In this document: positions 1,936 to 9,741 of the stretch, piece after piece
Layout: every line of letters starts with the position of its first letter
How positions within the stretch are numbered: the first letter of the stretch is position 1
Source: Herpetosiphon aurantiacus DSM 785
GTDB lineage: Bacteria; Chloroflexota; Chloroflexia; Chloroflexales; Herpetosiphonaceae
Direction of reading: 5' to 3'
Assembly (NCBI GenBank): GCA_000018565.1
Contig: CP000875.1
Span: forward strand, 1,999,199 to 2,063,198
DNA length: 64,000 nt
The notes under the pieces: model-generated
Database searches by the model: none
Told to the model about the DNA's origin: nothing
The model's input: only the letters and a program-made list of their open reading frames with translations
Made by a program: the position numbers and the translations under genes

Positions 1936-3018
1936 ATGACGGTCTACAACTTCAATGCCGGTCCTGCGATTTTGCCACCCAGTGTTTTGAGCCAAGCCCA
2001 AGAAGAACTTCGCGATTTTGCGGGCACTGGCATTTCGGTGATGGAAACCAGCCATCGCGCTAAAGAATTCGAAGCGGTTAATAACGAAGTCGAAGCTCGT
2101 TTTAAGGCTTTGCTGGGCATCGAAAGCGGCTATCGGGTTTTGTTGCTACAAGGCGGAGCCAGCACCCAATTTGCCATGATTCCCATGAATTTCTTGGGAG
2201 CGGATCAGGTTGCTGATTACATCATCACGGGCACATGGGCCGAAAAAGCCCGTGATGAAGCCCAAAAAATCGGCAAGGTGCATATTGCGGCTACTACTGA
2301 AGCCGAAAATCACAACCGTATCCCCAGCCAAACTGAACTGCAATTCAGCGAAAATCCAGTGTATGTGCACTTAACCACCAATAACACGATTTATGGCACC
2401 CAATGGCAGAGCACCCCGGAAACCAACGGCGTGCCAATTGTCGCCGATATGAGCAGCGATATTTTTTCGCGGCCTTTCGATGCTAGCAAGTTTGGTTTAG
2501 TCTATGCTGGCGCACAGAAAAATCTTGGGCCTTCTGGCGTAACTGTGGTGCTGATTCGCGAAGATTGGCTGGATAAAGGCGCGAAAAACGTGCCCACTAT
2601 GTTGCGCTATAGCACGCACGCTAAAAACAACTCGCTCTATAACACCCCACCAACTTTTGGGGTCTATATGCTGAACCTCGTTTTAGCTTGGATTCAAGAG
2701 CAAGGTGGTTTGGCGGGCATGGCTGAATACAACACCCGTAAAGCCAATGTTGTCTATAATGCGATCGATAATTCGGGTGGTTTCTATCGTGGTCATGCCG
2801 TGGCTGATAGCCGCTCCCAAATGAATGTAACCTTTAATCTACCCACCCAAGAGCTTGAAAAGCAATTCTTGGCCGAAGCCAAAGCCCAAGGCATGATCGG
2901 CTTGCCAGGTCACCGTTCGGTTGGCGGGGTGCGGGCCTCGATCTACAATGCCATGAGCATCGAAGGGGTTGAAGCCCTCGCCAGCTTTATGGCCCATTTT
3001 GCCGCCAAACAAGGCTAG
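1936..3018 (+). CDS. serC: Phosphoserine aminotransferase
   Basis: SerC converts 3-phosphohydroxypyruvate and glutamate to 3-phosphoserine in serine synthesis, and also acts in pyridoxal phosphate synthesis in some bacteria; it is a cytoplasmic PLP enzyme. The 360-residue protein starts MTVYNFNAGPAILPPSVL, the typical SerC opening. It continues with HRAKEFEA, the LLLQGGASTQFAMIPMN segment, VADMSSDIFSRP, and the PLP lysine in YAGAQKNLGPSG. It ends with GLPGHRSVGGVRASIYNAM. An in-frame upstream start at 1912 exists, but GAGGAG at 1923-1928 places initiation at 1936. It is a single gene ending in a bidirectional terminator that it shares with the convergent iron transporter operon. Confidence 0.96.
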   Translation: MTVYNFNAGPAILPPSVLSQAQEELRDFAGTGISVMETSHRAKEFEAVNNEVEARFKALLGIESGYRVLLLQGGASTQFAMIPMNFLGADQVADYIITGTWAEKARDEAQKIGKVHIAATTEAENHNRIPSQTELQFSENPVYVHLTTNNTIYGTQWQSTPETNGVPIVADMSSDIFSRPFDASKFGLVYAGAQKNLGPSGVTVVLIREDWLDKGAKNVPTMLRYSTHAKNNSLYNTPPTFGVYMLNLVLAWIQEQGGLAGMAEYNTRKANVVYNAIDNSGGFYRGHAVADSRSQMNVTFNLPTQELEKQFLAEAKAQGMIGLPGHRSVGGVRASIYNAMSIEGVEALASFMAHFAAKQG

Positions 3019-3030
3019 TTAACTGCAATC

Positions 3031-3072
3031 AAGCGCTCAGCGACAGGATGGTGAGCCTGTTGCTGAGCGCTT
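3031..3072. terminator. Bidirectional terminator between serC and fbpC
   Basis: A 17-bp stem (3031-3047 with 3056-3072, around AGCGCTCAGC) lies between the convergent stops of serC and the ABC ATPase gene. Confidence 0.6.
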
Positions 3073-3080
3073 TGCTGAGC

Positions 3081-4109
3081 TTATTCTGCTTGAAATGCCA
3101 CAACTGGGCCTTGGACACTCACGCCGACTTGCATTTTAGGCGCAAGATCGAGCCTTGGGCCAGTTCGCGCCGCAATCGTTAAATTGCCTATTTGCAGATC
3201 GATCAGTTGATCGTGGCCATAAAAGCGTTGACCCATGATCTGACCATGACCGCTTGGGTCGGGCACTAGATTCAGCGCTTCAGGCCGAATCATCAGGGTC
3301 ACTGGGCCATGCATTGGTTTGGTTAAGAGCAATTGGCCTAAAGCGCACTCAACTCGATTTTCTCGCGCAACCCCAGGCAAAAAGTTGGCCTCGCCCACAA
3401 ATTCGGCCACGGCTCGGCTGGTTGGGCGCAAATAAAGTTCATGCGGGGTGGCGCTTTGCAAAACCTTGCCCCCAAGCATCACGGTTACTTGATCGGCTAA
3501 GCTCAAGGCTTCTTCTTGATCATGAGTTACAAACAGGGCCGTCGCCCCAACTTGGCGCAAAATCTGTTTGGTGGCCGTGCGTACTTGGTCGCGCAAGCCT
3601 GCATCGAGGTTGGAAAAAGGCTCATCGAGTAGTAATAATTGAGGTTTGGGTGCTAAGGCGCGGGCGAGAGCGACCCGCTGTTGTTGACCACCCGAAAGCT
3701 CATGGGGCATGCGCTGGGCTAAACCACTCAATCCAACGAGTTCCAGTAATTCGTCAATCCGTTGTTGTTTATGAGTTTGACGACTCAAGCCATAGCCAAT
3801 ATTTTGGCCGACTGTCAAATGGGGAAACAAGGCATACTCTTGAAACACCATGCCAATCTGGCGTTGCTCAGGCGGAACTTGGCGATGGCTATTGGCGATT
3901 TCGCGCTGGCCAAGCCAAATCTGGCCTTGATCAAGCGTTTCAAAACCAGCAATCAAGCGGAGTAAGGTAGTTTTGCCACAGCCCGAAGGCCCAAGCAACG
4001 CCCCCAAACTGCCTTGGGGCAACTGAAAATCAACCTGATCTAGAACGGTAGTTGCATTGAAGGTTTTGCTAACGCCCCGACAGTTAATGGCTAAATTGGC
4101 TGTTTGCAT
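3081..4109 (-). CDS. fbpC: Ferric iron ABC transporter, ATP-binding protein
   Basis: A 342-residue ABC ATPase of the FbpC/PotA type that powers import through the permease encoded just upstream. It shows Walker A GPSGCGKTT, the Q-loop region GMVFQEYALFPHLTVGQNI, signature LSGGQQQR, Walker B LLLLDEP, the D-loop SNLD and the H-loop FVTHDQEEA. A C-terminal TOBE-like domain of about 100 residues follows, as in transporters for iron, polyamine and similar ligands. The ATG at 4109 (MQTANLAIN) was chosen because GTGAG precedes it and because the next upstream start would overlap the permease gene without a ribosome site. It is the last gene of the binding protein-permease-ATPase operon. Confidence 0.9.
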   Translation of the reverse strand: MQTANLAINCRGVSKTFNATTVLDQVDFQLPQGSLGALLGPSGCGKTTLLRLIAGFETLDQGQIWLGQREIANSHRQVPPEQRQIGMVFQEYALFPHLTVGQNIGYGLSRQTHKQQRIDELLELVGLSGLAQRMPHELSGGQQQRVALARALAPKPQLLLLDEPFSNLDAGLRDQVRTATKQILRQVGATALFVTHDQEEALSLADQVTVMLGGKVLQSATPHELYLRPTSRAVAEFVGEANFLPGVARENRVECALGQLLLTKPMHGPVTLMIRPEALNLVPDPSGHGQIMGQRFYGHDQLIDLQIGNLTIAARTGPRLDLAPKMQVGVSVQGPVVAFQAE

Positions 4110-4119
4110 GGCTGTGATC

Positions 4120-5712
4120 TCACGTTTTGCGTTCATTGGCCAGCAGCAAGGCCAACGAAGCACCTGCTGCGACCATCAACAATAACGCTGGTAAGGCGGT
4201 CTGGGAAAACCGTAATTCGGCGGTGTTGTTCCAAATATCGGTGGCCAAGGTATGAAAGCCAGTTGGCCCCAAAAGTAAGGTTGCTGGTAATTCTTTCAAG
4301 GTTGATAGAAATACCAAGGCCGCACCAGAAATAATCCCTGGCCGTAATAATGGTAAGGTGACACTCAGCACCACCCGCCAAGCTGGCTGGCCCAGCGAAC
4401 GCCCAGCTTCTTCCAAGCGCGGATTAATTTGTAACAAACTGGTGCGTAGGCTGCCAATCGCTTGCGGCAAAAAGCGCACAGCATAGGCCAAAATCAACAA
4501 ACCCAAGGTTTGGTAGGCCCAAGGCAGATAATTCGCACCCCAAAAAACCAAGGCTAGCGCCACCACAATTCCAGGCAGCGCATAGCCAACATAGGTTGCC
4601 CGCTCGATCAAACTGGTCAGACGGCTGGGATAGCGCACGGCCAAGAAAACCACTGGAAAGGCCAAAACAATCGTGACCAAGGCCGCTAAACTAGCAGCCA
4701 GCAGCGAATTGGCTAAATCTGTTAGTTGTAAATTCCAAGTTTGGCCTGCACGCAAGCCGATAATTAGCCACGCCACAATTGCCACAATTGGCAAAACAAC
4801 CGCAAACAGCACCACAATTGCGCAGAAGATTAAGGCAGGCCAGCGCCAAATCCCTAATCCGACTAATTTGGGTTGGCGGCTAACTCCCGCCGACGAGCGA
4901 TAATAACGGGCACGGCCACGACTCAAGGCTTCGGCGGTCAATAAACCACAGGCCAAACCAACTAGCAACAACGATAACACCGCCGCCCCAGTTCGATCAA
5001 ATGAGGCGCGATATTGCAGATAAATCGCTCGTGTAAACGAATTGTAGCGCAATAACGAAACTGCCCCGAAATCGCTCAAGGCATATAGGATCACCAATAA
5101 ACTGCCTGCCGCCAAGGCTGGCCGCAACTGTGGCAGCGTGATCCGCCAAAAAATGTGGCTTGAGCGTTGACCAAGTGATCGGGCAGCTTCTTCTAGCGCG
5201 GGGTCGAGTTTGCGCAAGGCAACCCGCACATTTAATACAATGTAGGGATAGCCAAATAGAATCAGTGCTCCGGCAGCGCCCCAAAAGCCATACACTTCGG
5301 GCAAGCGCTCAACTCCCAACGGTTCGAGCCATTGCTGCACTAAGCCACGTGGCCCGAGCACCGCGATAATCGCCCATGCCCCGATGTAGGAAGGAATCGC
5401 CATTGGTAGCATAATTAATGTTAGCCAAATTCGCGCTCCTGGTAAATTGGTGCGAGTGGTCAGCCAAGCTAAGGGCAGCCCGATCAAGAGCGAGCCAGCG
5501 GTCACCGTGATCGCCAGTAGCGCCGAGCCAGTGAACACGCGCAAGGTGCTAGGGCGTTGTAATTGAGCCCATGCTGTCGAGCCGGCCTCGCTGGTACGCA
5601 ACAGCAAATAACCAACTGGCAAAACCATGATTAACGCAATCAGGCCAGCACTGATCGTTAAGAACAGTGCTGACCAACGGCCAGATCGAAAGCGCAAATG
5701 TTTAAAAACCAT
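4120..5712 (-). CDS. fbpB: Ferric iron ABC transporter, fused permease
   Basis: A 530-residue protein with about 12 transmembrane segments made of two homologous halves, the architecture of FbpB/SfuB permeases in which two BPD_transp_1 domains are fused. Both halves carry an EAA-type cytoplasmic loop that docks the ATPase: EEAARSLGQRSSHIFWRITL in the first and EEAGRSLGQPAWRVVLSVTL in the second. It would move Fe(III), delivered by the lipoprotein encoded upstream, across the cytoplasmic membrane. The start codon is ATG with GAG upstream. The gap to the binding protein gene is 36 bases and the gap to the ATPase gene is 10 bases, so the three genes form one operon. Confidence 0.9.
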   Translation of the reverse strand: MVFKHLRFRSGRWSALFLTISAGLIALIMVLPVGYLLLRTSEAGSTAWAQLQRPSTLRVFTGSALLAITVTAGSLLIGLPLAWLTTRTNLPGARIWLTLIMLPMAIPSYIGAWAIIAVLGPRGLVQQWLEPLGVERLPEVYGFWGAAGALILFGYPYIVLNVRVALRKLDPALEEAARSLGQRSSHIFWRITLPQLRPALAAGSLLVILYALSDFGAVSLLRYNSFTRAIYLQYRASFDRTGAAVLSLLLVGLACGLLTAEALSRGRARYYRSSAGVSRQPKLVGLGIWRWPALIFCAIVVLFAVVLPIVAIVAWLIIGLRAGQTWNLQLTDLANSLLAASLAALVTIVLAFPVVFLAVRYPSRLTSLIERATYVGYALPGIVVALALVFWGANYLPWAYQTLGLLILAYAVRFLPQAIGSLRTSLLQINPRLEEAGRSLGQPAWRVVLSVTLPLLRPGIISGAALVFLSTLKELPATLLLGPTGFHTLATDIWNNTAELRFSQTALPALLLMVAAGASLALLLANERKT

Positions 5713-5748
5713 AGCTCAATCTAGCAAGCCAAGCTTGCAATGACGTGC

Positions 5749-6888
5749 TTATTGGATCGCCCCAACATCTTGCAACAATTCTAAGGTTCCTTGCAAATCT
5801 TTCAAATTGCTCAAATCGATGTTTGGGGTAATAATTTCGCCCAATGGCTTGATTGCTGGGTTGGTAATAATTCCAGCTACCAAGGGATATTCATTGGTTT
5901 TATCGGCGAAATAGAGTTGGGCACCGTCGCTCAACAAATAATTAGCAAAGGTTTGAGCGGCTTCAGGATTCTTGGCAGTTTTGAGCACACCCACGCCAGC
6001 AACATTCACCAACGAGCCAATATCGCCATTGCCGAAGTAGTGGTTAGCAGCCTTGGCATCTGGTTGCTCTTTTTTCAAGGCAAACAAGTAGTAGTGATTG
6101 ACCAAGCCGGTATCAACTTCGCCACTCGCAACGGCTTTGACAATCGCTGAGTTCGATTCATAGACTTTAACGTCGTTGGCGATCATGCCTTCGAGCCATT
6201 GTTTGGCCATATCTTCACCTTGGCTTACCCGCAATGCGGTGACAAAGGCTTGCAATGAACCATTGGTTGGAGCCCAAGCGACCCGACCTTTCCACTCTGG
6301 TTTGGTCAAATCAAGAATCGAAGCTGGCAAATCGGTGCTGGTCAAGACATCGGTGTTATAAACCAAAACCCGAGCGCGACCCGAAGCACCAACCCATGTG
6401 CCTTCGCTTGAAACAAAACGTGGATCAACCAAGTTCAACAATGACCGATCAAGTTGCACAAAGCGATCGCTCAATGCGCCTAATGCACCAGCATCTTGGC
6501 CGAAGAAGACATCGGCTGGGCTATTATCGCCTTCTTCAAGAATTTGCGCGGCCATCTCGGCAGTATCGCCATAGCGTACTTCGACGGCAATCCCAGTTTC
6601 TTGGGTAAAAAGCTCCAACAAGGGAGCAACTAAGCTTTCTGAACGCCCTGAATATACAACCAAACTGCCGCCAGCTGGCTCAGTGGTGGTGGTGGTTGGC
6701 ACGGTTGGCGAAACCTCAGCAATAGCAGTCACTTCGACGGTAGCAGTAGCTTCGGCTGCGCTAGCGGTCGTTGGGGTTGCTGCAGCGGTGGTTGGTGCTG
6801 TTACAGCCGTTGGAGTTGCTTCCCCACCACAGGCTGCAATCACAATGCTCAGACAGAGCAACAGCATCAAAGAACGCACAAGTTTCAC
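5749..6888 (-). CDS. fbpA: Ferric iron ABC transporter, substrate-binding lipoprotein
   Basis: A periplasmic-type binding protein (family 1, FbpA/IdiA class) of 379 residues that hands ferric iron to FbpBC. Translation starts at GTG 6888, because AAGGAG lies six bases upstream and is itself read as codons in the longer frame. A lipoprotein signal ends in IAAC with Cys20. A low-complexity Ala/Thr/Pro linker of about 50 residues follows before the folded domain starts at LVVYSGRSESLVAPLLELF. The segments ADVFFGQDAGALGAL, GRARVLVYNTD and GLVNHYYLFAL are typical of iron-binding members; the paired tyrosines in NHYYLF match the iron-ligand tyrosines of the family. The upstream region carries a long palindrome (6952-6986), a candidate operator. 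Other anions or sugars are possible ligands, but iron fits the whole operon best. Confidence 0.9.
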   Translation of the reverse strand: MKLVRSLMLLLCLSIVIAACGGEATPTAVTAPTTAAATPTTASAAEATATVEVTAIAEVSPTVPTTTTTEPAGGSLVVYSGRSESLVAPLLELFTQETGIAVEVRYGDTAEMAAQILEEGDNSPADVFFGQDAGALGALSDRFVQLDRSLLNLVDPRFVSSEGTWVGASGRARVLVYNTDVLTSTDLPASILDLTKPEWKGRVAWAPTNGSLQAFVTALRVSQGEDMAKQWLEGMIANDVKVYESNSAIVKAVASGEVDTGLVNHYYLFALKKEQPDAKAANHYFGNGDIGSLVNVAGVGVLKTAKNPEAAQTFANYLLSDGAQLYFADKTNEYPLVAGIITNPAIKPLGEIITPNIDLSNLKDLQGTLELLQDVGAIQ

Positions 6889-6986: not shown

Positions 6987-7256
6987 CAGGCGGAAGTATA
7001 ACGCCCACGATTGCTCATGTCAAATAGTTGTGCCTTGGAGATTTTTATTCCAGCACTATAGTATGCAATTTGGCTGATTATTGTTACTTGCTAAAACGAA
7101 GAGTTAAATTGGGTCATCTAAGCGCTATTTACCGCTATTGTGAGCGTTCCCTGCTTGAATCCCCCTGATTTCCGCTTGAATCCCCCTCTCGCCATTAGAT
7201 CTATCTTCCCCTAGAGTAACGTTACAATCTCGTAATAGCGGAAGGATTGAATAATC

Positions 7257-7661
7257 ATGCGAATTATCAAACGGGGAATTCTGCTTGGCCTGCTTGGCCT
7301 TATGACTATGGTTGGTAGTGTTGTAACCCGACCTAGCACGCCGGCCGACGCTGCGAAGCTATGTCTTCAATTTCTCTACGATGTGAATTACCCTGATGGC
7401 ACAGTTGTGGGCAAAAACCGCCAATTGCGTAAAGAGTGGCAGGTTTTCAACTGTGGAACCCGAACTTGGGGCACGAGTTTTACATTCCGCCGCGTATCAC
7501 ATCTCTTTCCAGTTGGGGCATTTGCAACTGGCGCTTTTAACTTAACCAGCCCTATTGCTGGCAACCAACAAGGAACGATCTATGTGGACTTAACCACTGG
7601 CTCGGAAAGTGGAAATTTCAAAGCCTCGTATCAACTGTATACGCCGGGCGAAAAAGCATGA
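7257..7661 (+). CDS. Secreted Ig-like (NBR1-type) domain protein, C-terminus cut off by an IS element
   Basis: 134 codons beginning with a signal peptide (RGILLGLLGLMTMVGSVV, cleavage near ADA) followed by one beta-rich domain. LYDVNYPDGTVVGKNRQLRK, then EWQVFNCGTRTWG and further strands resemble the Ig-like domain found next to BRCA1 (NBR1 type), which is common in Chloroflexota surface proteins. The function is unknown; such domains bind partners or polymers. The stop TGA at 7659-7661 is not native: it is formed by the first bases of the inserted element. Joining the codon GCA at 7656-7658 to the sequence after the insertion (9538 onward) restores a frame that adds FGDIFWFDLTIN and then TAG, which closes the domain. 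The native protein was therefore 146 residues. The start has AAGGA upstream. Confidence 0.8.
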   Translation: MRIIKRGILLGLLGLMTMVGSVVTRPSTPADAAKLCLQFLYDVNYPDGTVVGKNRQLRKEWQVFNCGTRTWGTSFTFRRVSHLFPVGAFATGAFNLTSPIAGNQQGTIYVDLTTGSESGNFKASYQLYTPGEKA

Positions 7662-9533
7662 TAGTGCTGGCGAACCCTGTTTGTGCAGCACTGGGCTGAA
7701 ACGAACCAACGATCATTGGTGGCTATGGAGCCGTGTCTGTTCACGTATCTGAGACAGAGCAGGCGGTGGACGGAGGGCCACAAAGCGCGACGTTTGGGTT
7801 TGGTGACGCGACCCACCGGTCACCCATGCCACACTCCTCAGCAGATTCAGCGCACACGCGGTCAGCACATGCTGGAGTCGCGTTTTCGCCATCCCACCAT
7901 AGCGACTCTGCCGCATCCCACAGACTCGGGTTGCTTGCGACATTAGTCCCTCGACTCCCGCCCGTTTTGCATACTGCCGTTTGAAGGCATCGGTTGTTTG
8001 GGCGTGCCGCCGCTGCTGAAGGACTTCATGCTGTTCTCGGGGGCGGAGCGAAAGGCCTCGTGCTGCGGTTGCCGTATGCGTACACTGTGTTCGGACTGGA
8101 CACGCTCGGCAGTCACGCGGTCGAAACGTCACGCGAATGGCAGGATTCCCGTGTCGATCCTGATGCGAAATCCATTTGGTACTTGCGTGTCCTTGGGGAC
8201 AAATGACCACCTTCGCGTCCCAATCGACCTGAAATCGCGTGATATCGAAGGCGGTCGGGTCTTTCGCTTGCCAGGCACTATCGCGAGCAATTGGCCCGCA
8301 CAGTGTAATCCCATAGGTGGACTGGCTGGTGAGCATCGCTGCTGCATCGGTATAGCCCGTATCAACAAGATGGGTGCTGGGAAGGAGATCATGGCGAGCA
8401 AGGCCCTCATGAATCTGGTCTAAGACTTCACCATCACGAATCGTGGATGGCGTGGTAAGCACATGCGTGATGAGGCAGGGCAGATCAGCATCGAAGGTTT
8501 CAGTCAGATGCACTTTGTATCCCGTCCATTCCATATTGCGTTTCGTGCTGTACTGCGCATCGCGATCATAGGGCGAATGAATGCGCATCCTGCTCGGTGG
8601 CATATCAGCCACTTCACGCCAGCGAACTGGTCCATTGGGGGCATGGTATTGTTGCCACCAAACGCGACGAAGGATGCATACGGCGGGATGAACGTGCAGT
8701 TCACGCGGGGCAGTCGGTGCCGCAAGGAGGGTGAGGAGTTCAAACCCATCGGCTCCAATCTGCTCGGCAAGACGTTGACGGTCGGCGGCTGCCTTCGGAA
8801 AGCGATATGCATCAGCACGTGGCCCATAGCGATCAAACCACGGCGGTGGAATCTGGCAGCGGACCCATGCGGGAGCCACGGTTGCGAGCGCATTGAGGGT
8901 GGCACGCATCGTTTCGCCAAGACATTCAATGCGACTCAGGCCACGAACTGCCGCGAGGACATGGGTCGAATCGGTGCGTTGTTGCCCGCGTGTTCGCAGT
9001 AATCCGTAATCGCGAAGGCGCTCCAGCAGGGTTTCAAAGAGGATAGACGCACCATCTCCCGCCACAAGCCGGGCGCGGAACTCGCTGAGGACGGAGGCAT
9101 CAAAGCCACGATCAGCAAGCGGAAGGCCCAAGACATATTTCCAATCAATGCGCATCCGCACGGCATCGGCGGCTTGGCGATCGGGGAGATCTTCCATGAA
9201 CTGGAGGATGGTGACCATGGCGAGTCGTGCTGGCGCGAGGGCCGGTTGACCAGTATGGGAAAAGAGCGTGCTGAATTGCTGATTGTCAAACAGCATGCCA
9301 AAGTGATCACGGAGGTGCATGAGTCGGTTGCCATGTGGAGCAATGGCGTGTGCCAATTCAACGGTGTCCTCAGGAATGGGATAGTCACCAAACAACGCCG
9401 CACGCATGGTCATGGATTCGGCTCCCTTTCGCACCGGTGGTGCATCCATCAACAGAGCAGATTCCATGATAGCCGAAGATCGCGGGCAAGAGACCGTACT
9501 GCACCGCACAAACAGGGTTCGCTAGCACTATCA
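7659..9533. mobile_element. IS1182-family insertion sequence, 1,875 bp, apparently complete
   Basis: The ends are inverted repeats: the left end reads TGATAGTGCTGGCGAACCCT from 7659 and the right end, read inward from 9533, is TGATAGTGCTAGCGAACCCT. Identity continues to about 28-30 bases with one or two mismatches. AGCA is duplicated at 7655-7658 and 9534-9537 as target site duplication. One long transposase gene fills the element on the minus strand. The insertion lies in the last codons of the Ig-like gene, which becomes continuous when the element and one AGCA copy are removed. The precise ends and undamaged ORF point to a recent insertion. Confidence 0.92.
7713..9413 (-). CDS. IS1182-family transposase (DDE)
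   Basis: A transposase of 566 residues. The N-terminal DUF772-like region includes FSTLFSHTGQPALAPARLAM, TILQFMEDLPDRQAADAVR and DWKYVLGLPL. The DDE catalytic core starts with QRTDSTHVLAAVRGL, followed by THLVDTGYTDAAAML and the CP-rich DCRACPVRTQCTHT segment. The region GLRPREQHEVLQ-like to KRAGVEGLMSQATRVCGMRQ near the end carries the last acidic residue (VEG). The start is the ATG at 9413, with GGGAG eight bases upstream; longer in-frame starts reach nearly to the terminal repeat and lack a ribosome site. No frameshift or stop is seen, so the enzyme may be active. Confidence 0.92.
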   Translation of the reverse strand: MTMRAALFGDYPIPEDTVELAHAIAPHGNRLMHLRDHFGMLFDNQQFSTLFSHTGQPALAPARLAMVTILQFMEDLPDRQAADAVRMRIDWKYVLGLPLADRGFDASVLSEFRARLVAGDGASILFETLLERLRDYGLLRTRGQQRTDSTHVLAAVRGLSRIECLGETMRATLNALATVAPAWVRCQIPPPWFDRYGPRADAYRFPKAAADRQRLAEQIGADGFELLTLLAAPTAPRELHVHPAVCILRRVWWQQYHAPNGPVRWREVADMPPSRMRIHSPYDRDAQYSTKRNMEWTGYKVHLTETFDADLPCLITHVLTTPSTIRDGEVLDQIHEGLARHDLLPSTHLVDTGYTDAAAMLTSQSTYGITLCGPIARDSAWQAKDPTAFDITRFQVDWDAKVVICPQGHASTKWISHQDRHGNPAIRVTFRPRDCRACPVRTQCTHTATAARGLSLRPREQHEVLQQRRHAQTTDAFKRQYAKRAGVEGLMSQATRVCGMRQSRYGGMAKTRLQHVLTACALNLLRSVAWVTGGSRHQTQTSRFVALRPPPALSQIREQTRLHSHQ

Positions 9534-9576
9534 AGCATTTGGTGATATCTTTTGGTTTGACTTAACAATTAACTAG
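9534..9576 (+). pseudogene. Severed 3' end of the Ig-like gene
   Basis: The first four bases are the target duplication AGCA. Thereafter TTT GGT GAT ATC TTT TGG and so on encode FGDIFWFDLTIN followed by TAG at 9574-9576. These twelve residues match the end of an NBR1-type Ig domain and are in frame with the gene upstream of the insertion element. Confidence 0.8.
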
Positions 9577-9600
9577 CCAATTACCATCAGCATTTACTAG

Positions 9601-9631
9601 AATACCTTCGAGCGGTTGGCTTGAGGGTATT
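9601..9631 (+). terminator. Terminator-like hairpin after the severed Ig-like gene
   Basis: A 13-bp stem with wobble pairs (9601-9613 with 9619-9631, AATACC to GGTATT) has a 5-base loop and is followed by TCTTGTTTA. It lies 25 bases after the native TAG and was probably the terminator of the gene before the insertion. Confidence 0.45.
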
Positions 9632-9741
9632 TCTTGTTTAGCCATTCACTCAAACCGCGAAGCTTGGCCAAATTTGAGCATAGTAGTGCCCAAAATCGCG
9701 TATAATCAACCAAATACCTAATGCAGCAGAATGGAGCACCC

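Follow-up and report, generated by a model that had tools for sequence, protein, structure and literature searches.

The end of a small secreted gene in Herpetosiphon aurantiacus raises the question of whether its present stop codon is its own or was supplied by a mobile element. The gene lies in a window of 64,000 nucleotides (C1:1999199-2063198), the whole stretch of DNA that was analysed, and the element begins at the stop codon itself. Insertion of an IS1182-family element that truncated the FW-domain gene is almost certainly the best overall explanation of this arrangement. The features that carry this reading are the following (positions are those of the window).

7257 to 7661, plus strand: truncated gene for a secreted protein of 134 amino acids with an N_BRCA1_IG (FW/NBR1 Ig-like) domain, from the PF16158 match and the ORF list
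7655 to 7658, no strand: left AGCA, one copy of the target duplication, from the flank read-out
7659 to 9533, no strand: insertion sequence of the IS1182 family, 1875 bp long; the genome has three near-identical copies, this one included
7659 to 7686, plus strand: left terminal inverted repeat, 28 bp, from the repeat finder and flank read-out
7713 to 9416, minus strand: transposase gene, 567 amino acids from ATG, from the NF033551 match, with the start set by plasmid homologues
9506 to 9533, minus strand: right terminal inverted repeat of 28 bp, identical to the left one at 27 of 28 positions
9534 to 9537, no strand: right AGCA, the other copy of the target duplication, from the flank read-out
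9538 to 9576, plus strand: severed gene end, codons for FGDIFWFDLTIN and then TAG, from the joined frame and the completion of PF16158

The insertion element

The first-pass annotation described an IS1182-like element with terminal inverted repeats at 7659 and 9533 and with AGCA on both sides, and all three features were recovered. The transposase scores 314.6 bits against the IS1182 transposase model NF033551 (cut-off 270), aligning over positions 14 to 488 of 488, and the Pfam families PF13751 and PF05598 also match above their cut-offs; the domains named are DDE_Tnp_1_6, DUF772 and DDE_Tnp_1. With a transposase above the curated cut-off, terminal inverted repeats and a 4-bp duplication, the element belongs to the IS1182 family. 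The transposase ORF as listed begins at a GTG at 9509, within the inverted repeat, and would encode 598 amino acids. Among plasmid homologues, 228 records were returned, every one less than 60% identical, and in six of the 10 listed the alignment begins at the first or second residue of the ATG form. For this reason, 7713-9416 was taken as the transposase gene.

The annotation also suggested a search for other copies. Three full copies, counting that of the window, are present in the 6,785,430-base genome (three contigs), all on contig C1, with the other two at 1689827-1691701 and 2562928-2564802. They differ at one position overall, the mismatch in the right inverted repeat, which is T in the window copy and C in the other two, whose repeats match at 28 of 28 positions. 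An element of which three copies differ at a single position, and whose transposase clears the IS1182 cut-off, is beyond chance. More diverged relatives occur on contig C2 and in four of the five other genomes of the genus. A literature search for IS1182 in combination with Herpetosiphon led to one paper, whose available text contains nothing on the window element.

The severed end of the domain

The stop codon TGA at 7659-7661 coincides with bases 1 to 3 of the element, as had been proposed. The insertion point falls directly after codon 134. When the flanks were joined by script on a single AGCA, a frame of 146 codons resulted, with the C-terminus FGDIFWFDLTIN followed by TAG, and the earlier reconstruction of the empty site was thus reproduced. 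The disrupted gene has lost 12 residues.

The domain match changes accordingly. The 134-residue product scores 36.7 bits against PF16158 (cut-off 28) over profile positions 1-94 of 108, and the joined 146-residue product scores 51.5 bits over positions 1-107, a gain of 14.8 bits. The present protein therefore stops short of a complete domain through the last strand, and the remainder lies beyond the element. Two tryptophans occur in the 134-residue protein and a third in the severed tail, fewer than the four that give the FW domain its name; membership in PF16158 by cut-off needs fewer than all four.

Distant homologues were used as a second line of evidence. A search of 400 genomes of the phylum gave 115 with a match, and 30 loci were fetched. 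They supplied 40 domains, which were selected with the truncated query only; matches that ended short of query position 118 were discarded. FG occurs at the aligned place in 37 of the 40, and the strand that follows it is rich in aromatic and beta-branched residues, as in FGDQIWVKINV and FGDSPWVLIKV. Against a profile of all 40 domains the tail adds 5.5 bits, and 11 of 1000 shuffled tails did equally well or better. When the profile was built from 11 short-loop homologues instead, the gain was 9.9 bits, a value that no shuffled tail out of 1000 reached, but the pattern used to choose these 11 itself contained the tail motif, which biases the test in its favour; the all-40 test is the less clear of the two. 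In an earlier set of 200 shuffles, the top-scoring shuffled tail tied with the real one. A search of PDB sequences returned only non-significant matches, to NBR1 (4ole, E 0.46) and ILRUN (6vhi, E 0.75), which are consistent with the family.

Since the Pfam match extends and rises and distant homologues end alike, the lost twelve residues are identified by homology as the last strand of the N_BRCA1_IG (FW) domain. Both the completion of an NBR1-type domain by the tail and the loss of the last strand from the truncated protein, as claimed earlier, agree with the profile boundaries. A different reading holds that the 134-residue form is a real and selected end, that the element provides a useful stop and that the downstream FGDIFWFDLTIN is a chance frame. 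The 134-residue form does clear the Pfam cut-off, and no relative with the longer form at this locus came to light among the five genus genomes or in the scan of GTDB genome contigs, where no close relative of the 134-residue protein was found. However, the tail occupies the final columns of the domain model, matches the ends of distant homologues, and scores as it does only rarely by chance, which leaves this reading extremely improbable.

A hairpin lies just beyond the severed end.

9600 to 9632, plus strand: terminator-like hairpin past the severed end, from the consensus scan and folding

Its folding energy is -20.3 kcal/mol (z -5.4), and none of 200 shuffled sequences was as good. The consensus scan by itself found one terminator-like site between 6900 and 9760, against a mean of 2.8 in shuffles. 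The first-pass annotation had called 9601-9631 the native terminator; a strong hairpin is indeed present, and its role as the terminator of this gene is a plausible interpretation. Reading frame, domain and hairpin agree with the earlier reconstruction.

The locus in the genus

The gene occupies a slot whose contents vary among related genomes.

7098 to 9691, no strand: interval common to none of the five compared relatives, from DNA comparison

The slot sits between a solute-binding-protein gene and a gene for an FAD dehydrogenase. DNA similarity ends no later than about 7098 and picks up again near 9692, just ahead of the dehydrogenase start, and the downstream gene is 97-99% identical at the protein level in all five relatives. 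The same slot measures about 185, 235 and 234 bases in G002, G004 and G001, about 3.8 kb in G003, and at least 6 kb in G005, where the upstream neighbour lies beyond the 8 kb fetched. The genes in the G005 slot look, from a reading of their ORFs, like a response regulator, a sensor kinase and an ABC exporter. The G003 slot holds two long ORFs, of 568 and 517 amino acids (2596-5900 of the fetched locus), neither of which matches a Pfam family at E 0.01.

Searches of the five other genomes of the genus found neither the protein nor the domain, and PF16158 has no other match in the H. aurantiacus genome. Because it is absent from the relatives and the contents of the slot differ, the Ig-like gene is variable, species-specific cargo among the genomes compared. 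The empty site of this gene was sought in the five relatives and was not found, the whole gene being absent. As a result, the sister comparison does not speak for or against the reconstruction, whose support comes from the distant homologues and from the empty site of a second copy of the element.

The variable slot also bears on whether the insertion had any effect of its own. If the gene was already decaying or unexpressed when the element arrived, the insertion itself changed nothing. Absence of the gene from all five relatives and its place in a variable slot suggest dispensability, as this account would have it. The frame is otherwise intact between its signal-peptide-like start and TAG; a Shine-Dalgarno-like GGAAGGA precedes it and the strong hairpin follows it, and these features make prior decay possible but unlikely.

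Target sites of the other copies

The copy at C1:1689827-1691701 (1500-3374 of C1:1688328-1693201) splits a PF00180 gene and has CAAA on both sides. The gene is unsplit in all five relatives, and the uninterrupted site carries a single CAAA in G003 and G005 and a single CAAG in G001, G002 and G004. The single, uninterrupted tetranucleotide in every relative means that the element does make 4-bp duplications; at this second locus, they are demonstrated against the empty site. The intact form in G003 has its best NCBIfam match to isocitrate dehydrogenase PRK08997, with 399.6 bits, below the cut-off of 510. The other PF00180 genes found in the genome are leuB, a gene of the isopropylmalate/homoisocitrate type and a divergent member of 359 amino acids. 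No monomeric isocitrate dehydrogenase (PF03971) was found in the genome, and the divergent 359-residue member may be the one on which the type strain relies.

The third copy, at C1:2562928-2564802 (1500-3374 of C1:2561429-2566302), interrupts a perfect 32-bp palindrome (16+16 bp) exactly at its midpoint and is the one copy of the three that lacks a 4-bp direct duplication. The cut is therefore not always of the 4-bp kind. It is possible that the third copy carries a two-base AT duplication inside a slightly shorter palindrome. A search of the genome that tolerated up to two mismatches gave no other occurrence of the palindrome arm. No empty copy of the palindrome was seen in the relatives, where the left flank aligns with G001 and with G002 for some 312 of its 500 bases and the match stops short of the junction. 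A short stretch near the third copy is shared with a place on contig C2 adjoining an IS1182-like relic and with other genomes of the genus.

Hairpins were also considered for the window and CAAA sites and were set aside, the best arms, at the junction or close to it, reaching just 3 and 4 bp. An inverted-repeat target free of 4-bp duplication, with 16-bp arms, occurs at one of the three copies. One element might still use two target styles through one mechanism, such as cleavage of the loop of an extruded hairpin with duplication of the loop sequence, a variant drawn in the available part of PMC5678879. In the window, AGCA lies exactly between AAA and TTT; as a loop on this 3-bp stem, which may be due to chance, it fits the idea weakly, and the CAAA site has no such stem. 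We regard a common mechanism as improbable. If true, it would explain the variable duplications of the IS1182 family.

Sequence of events and significance

In the reading we prefer, a functional-looking IS1182-family element transposed into the small secreted FW-domain gene after codon 134, with a presumed 4-bp staggered cut that duplicated AGCA. The gene now stops at the element-borne TGA, at the cost of 12 residues, the final beta strand of the one domain that it encodes. The truncated protein would be expected to fold poorly and may be unstable, as suggested earlier, and tolerance of the loss may reflect the dispensability of a gene that is species-specific cargo.

The event is real, was correctly read and is an ordinary one, and the FW-domain gene looks dispensable. 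Its importance is mainly for annotation. The reference FW-domain protein of H. aurantiacus lacks its last strand, and alignments and experiments should allow for the truncation. The split isocitrate-dehydrogenase-like gene, intact in five relatives, is relevant to metabolic modelling of the type strain.

Comparison with known systems

A close parallel is ISPse1, an IS1182-family element from Paracoccus described in the accessible text of PMC3281130. Like the window element, it has terminal inverted repeats and a 4-bp target duplication, but it is 1653 bp long with 16-bp inverted repeats, as opposed to 1875 bp and 28 bp. The staphylococcal members IS1272 and TnSha1 insert into inverted-repeat targets without target duplication, according to the portions available of PMC5678879 and PMC4923244. 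This targeting resembles that of the copy at C1:2562928, whereas the window and isocitrate-dehydrogenase copies give 4-bp duplications at sites that have no clear hairpin. Since inverted-repeat targets have been described for IS1272, insertion into palindromes is already known for the IS1182 family.

Bacterial proteins with the N_BRCA1_IG (FW) domain have been reported before, with members from Chloroflexi and one from a Herpetosiphon among them (PMC3357945 and PMC9582228, as far as their available text goes). They share with the present protein a PF16158 domain near the C-terminus. They differ in that here the domain stands alone after a signal-peptide-like segment and its last strand is missing. 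Because this gene is the sole PF16158 match in the genome, the Herpetosiphon FW sequence published in PMC3357945 is probably this protein.
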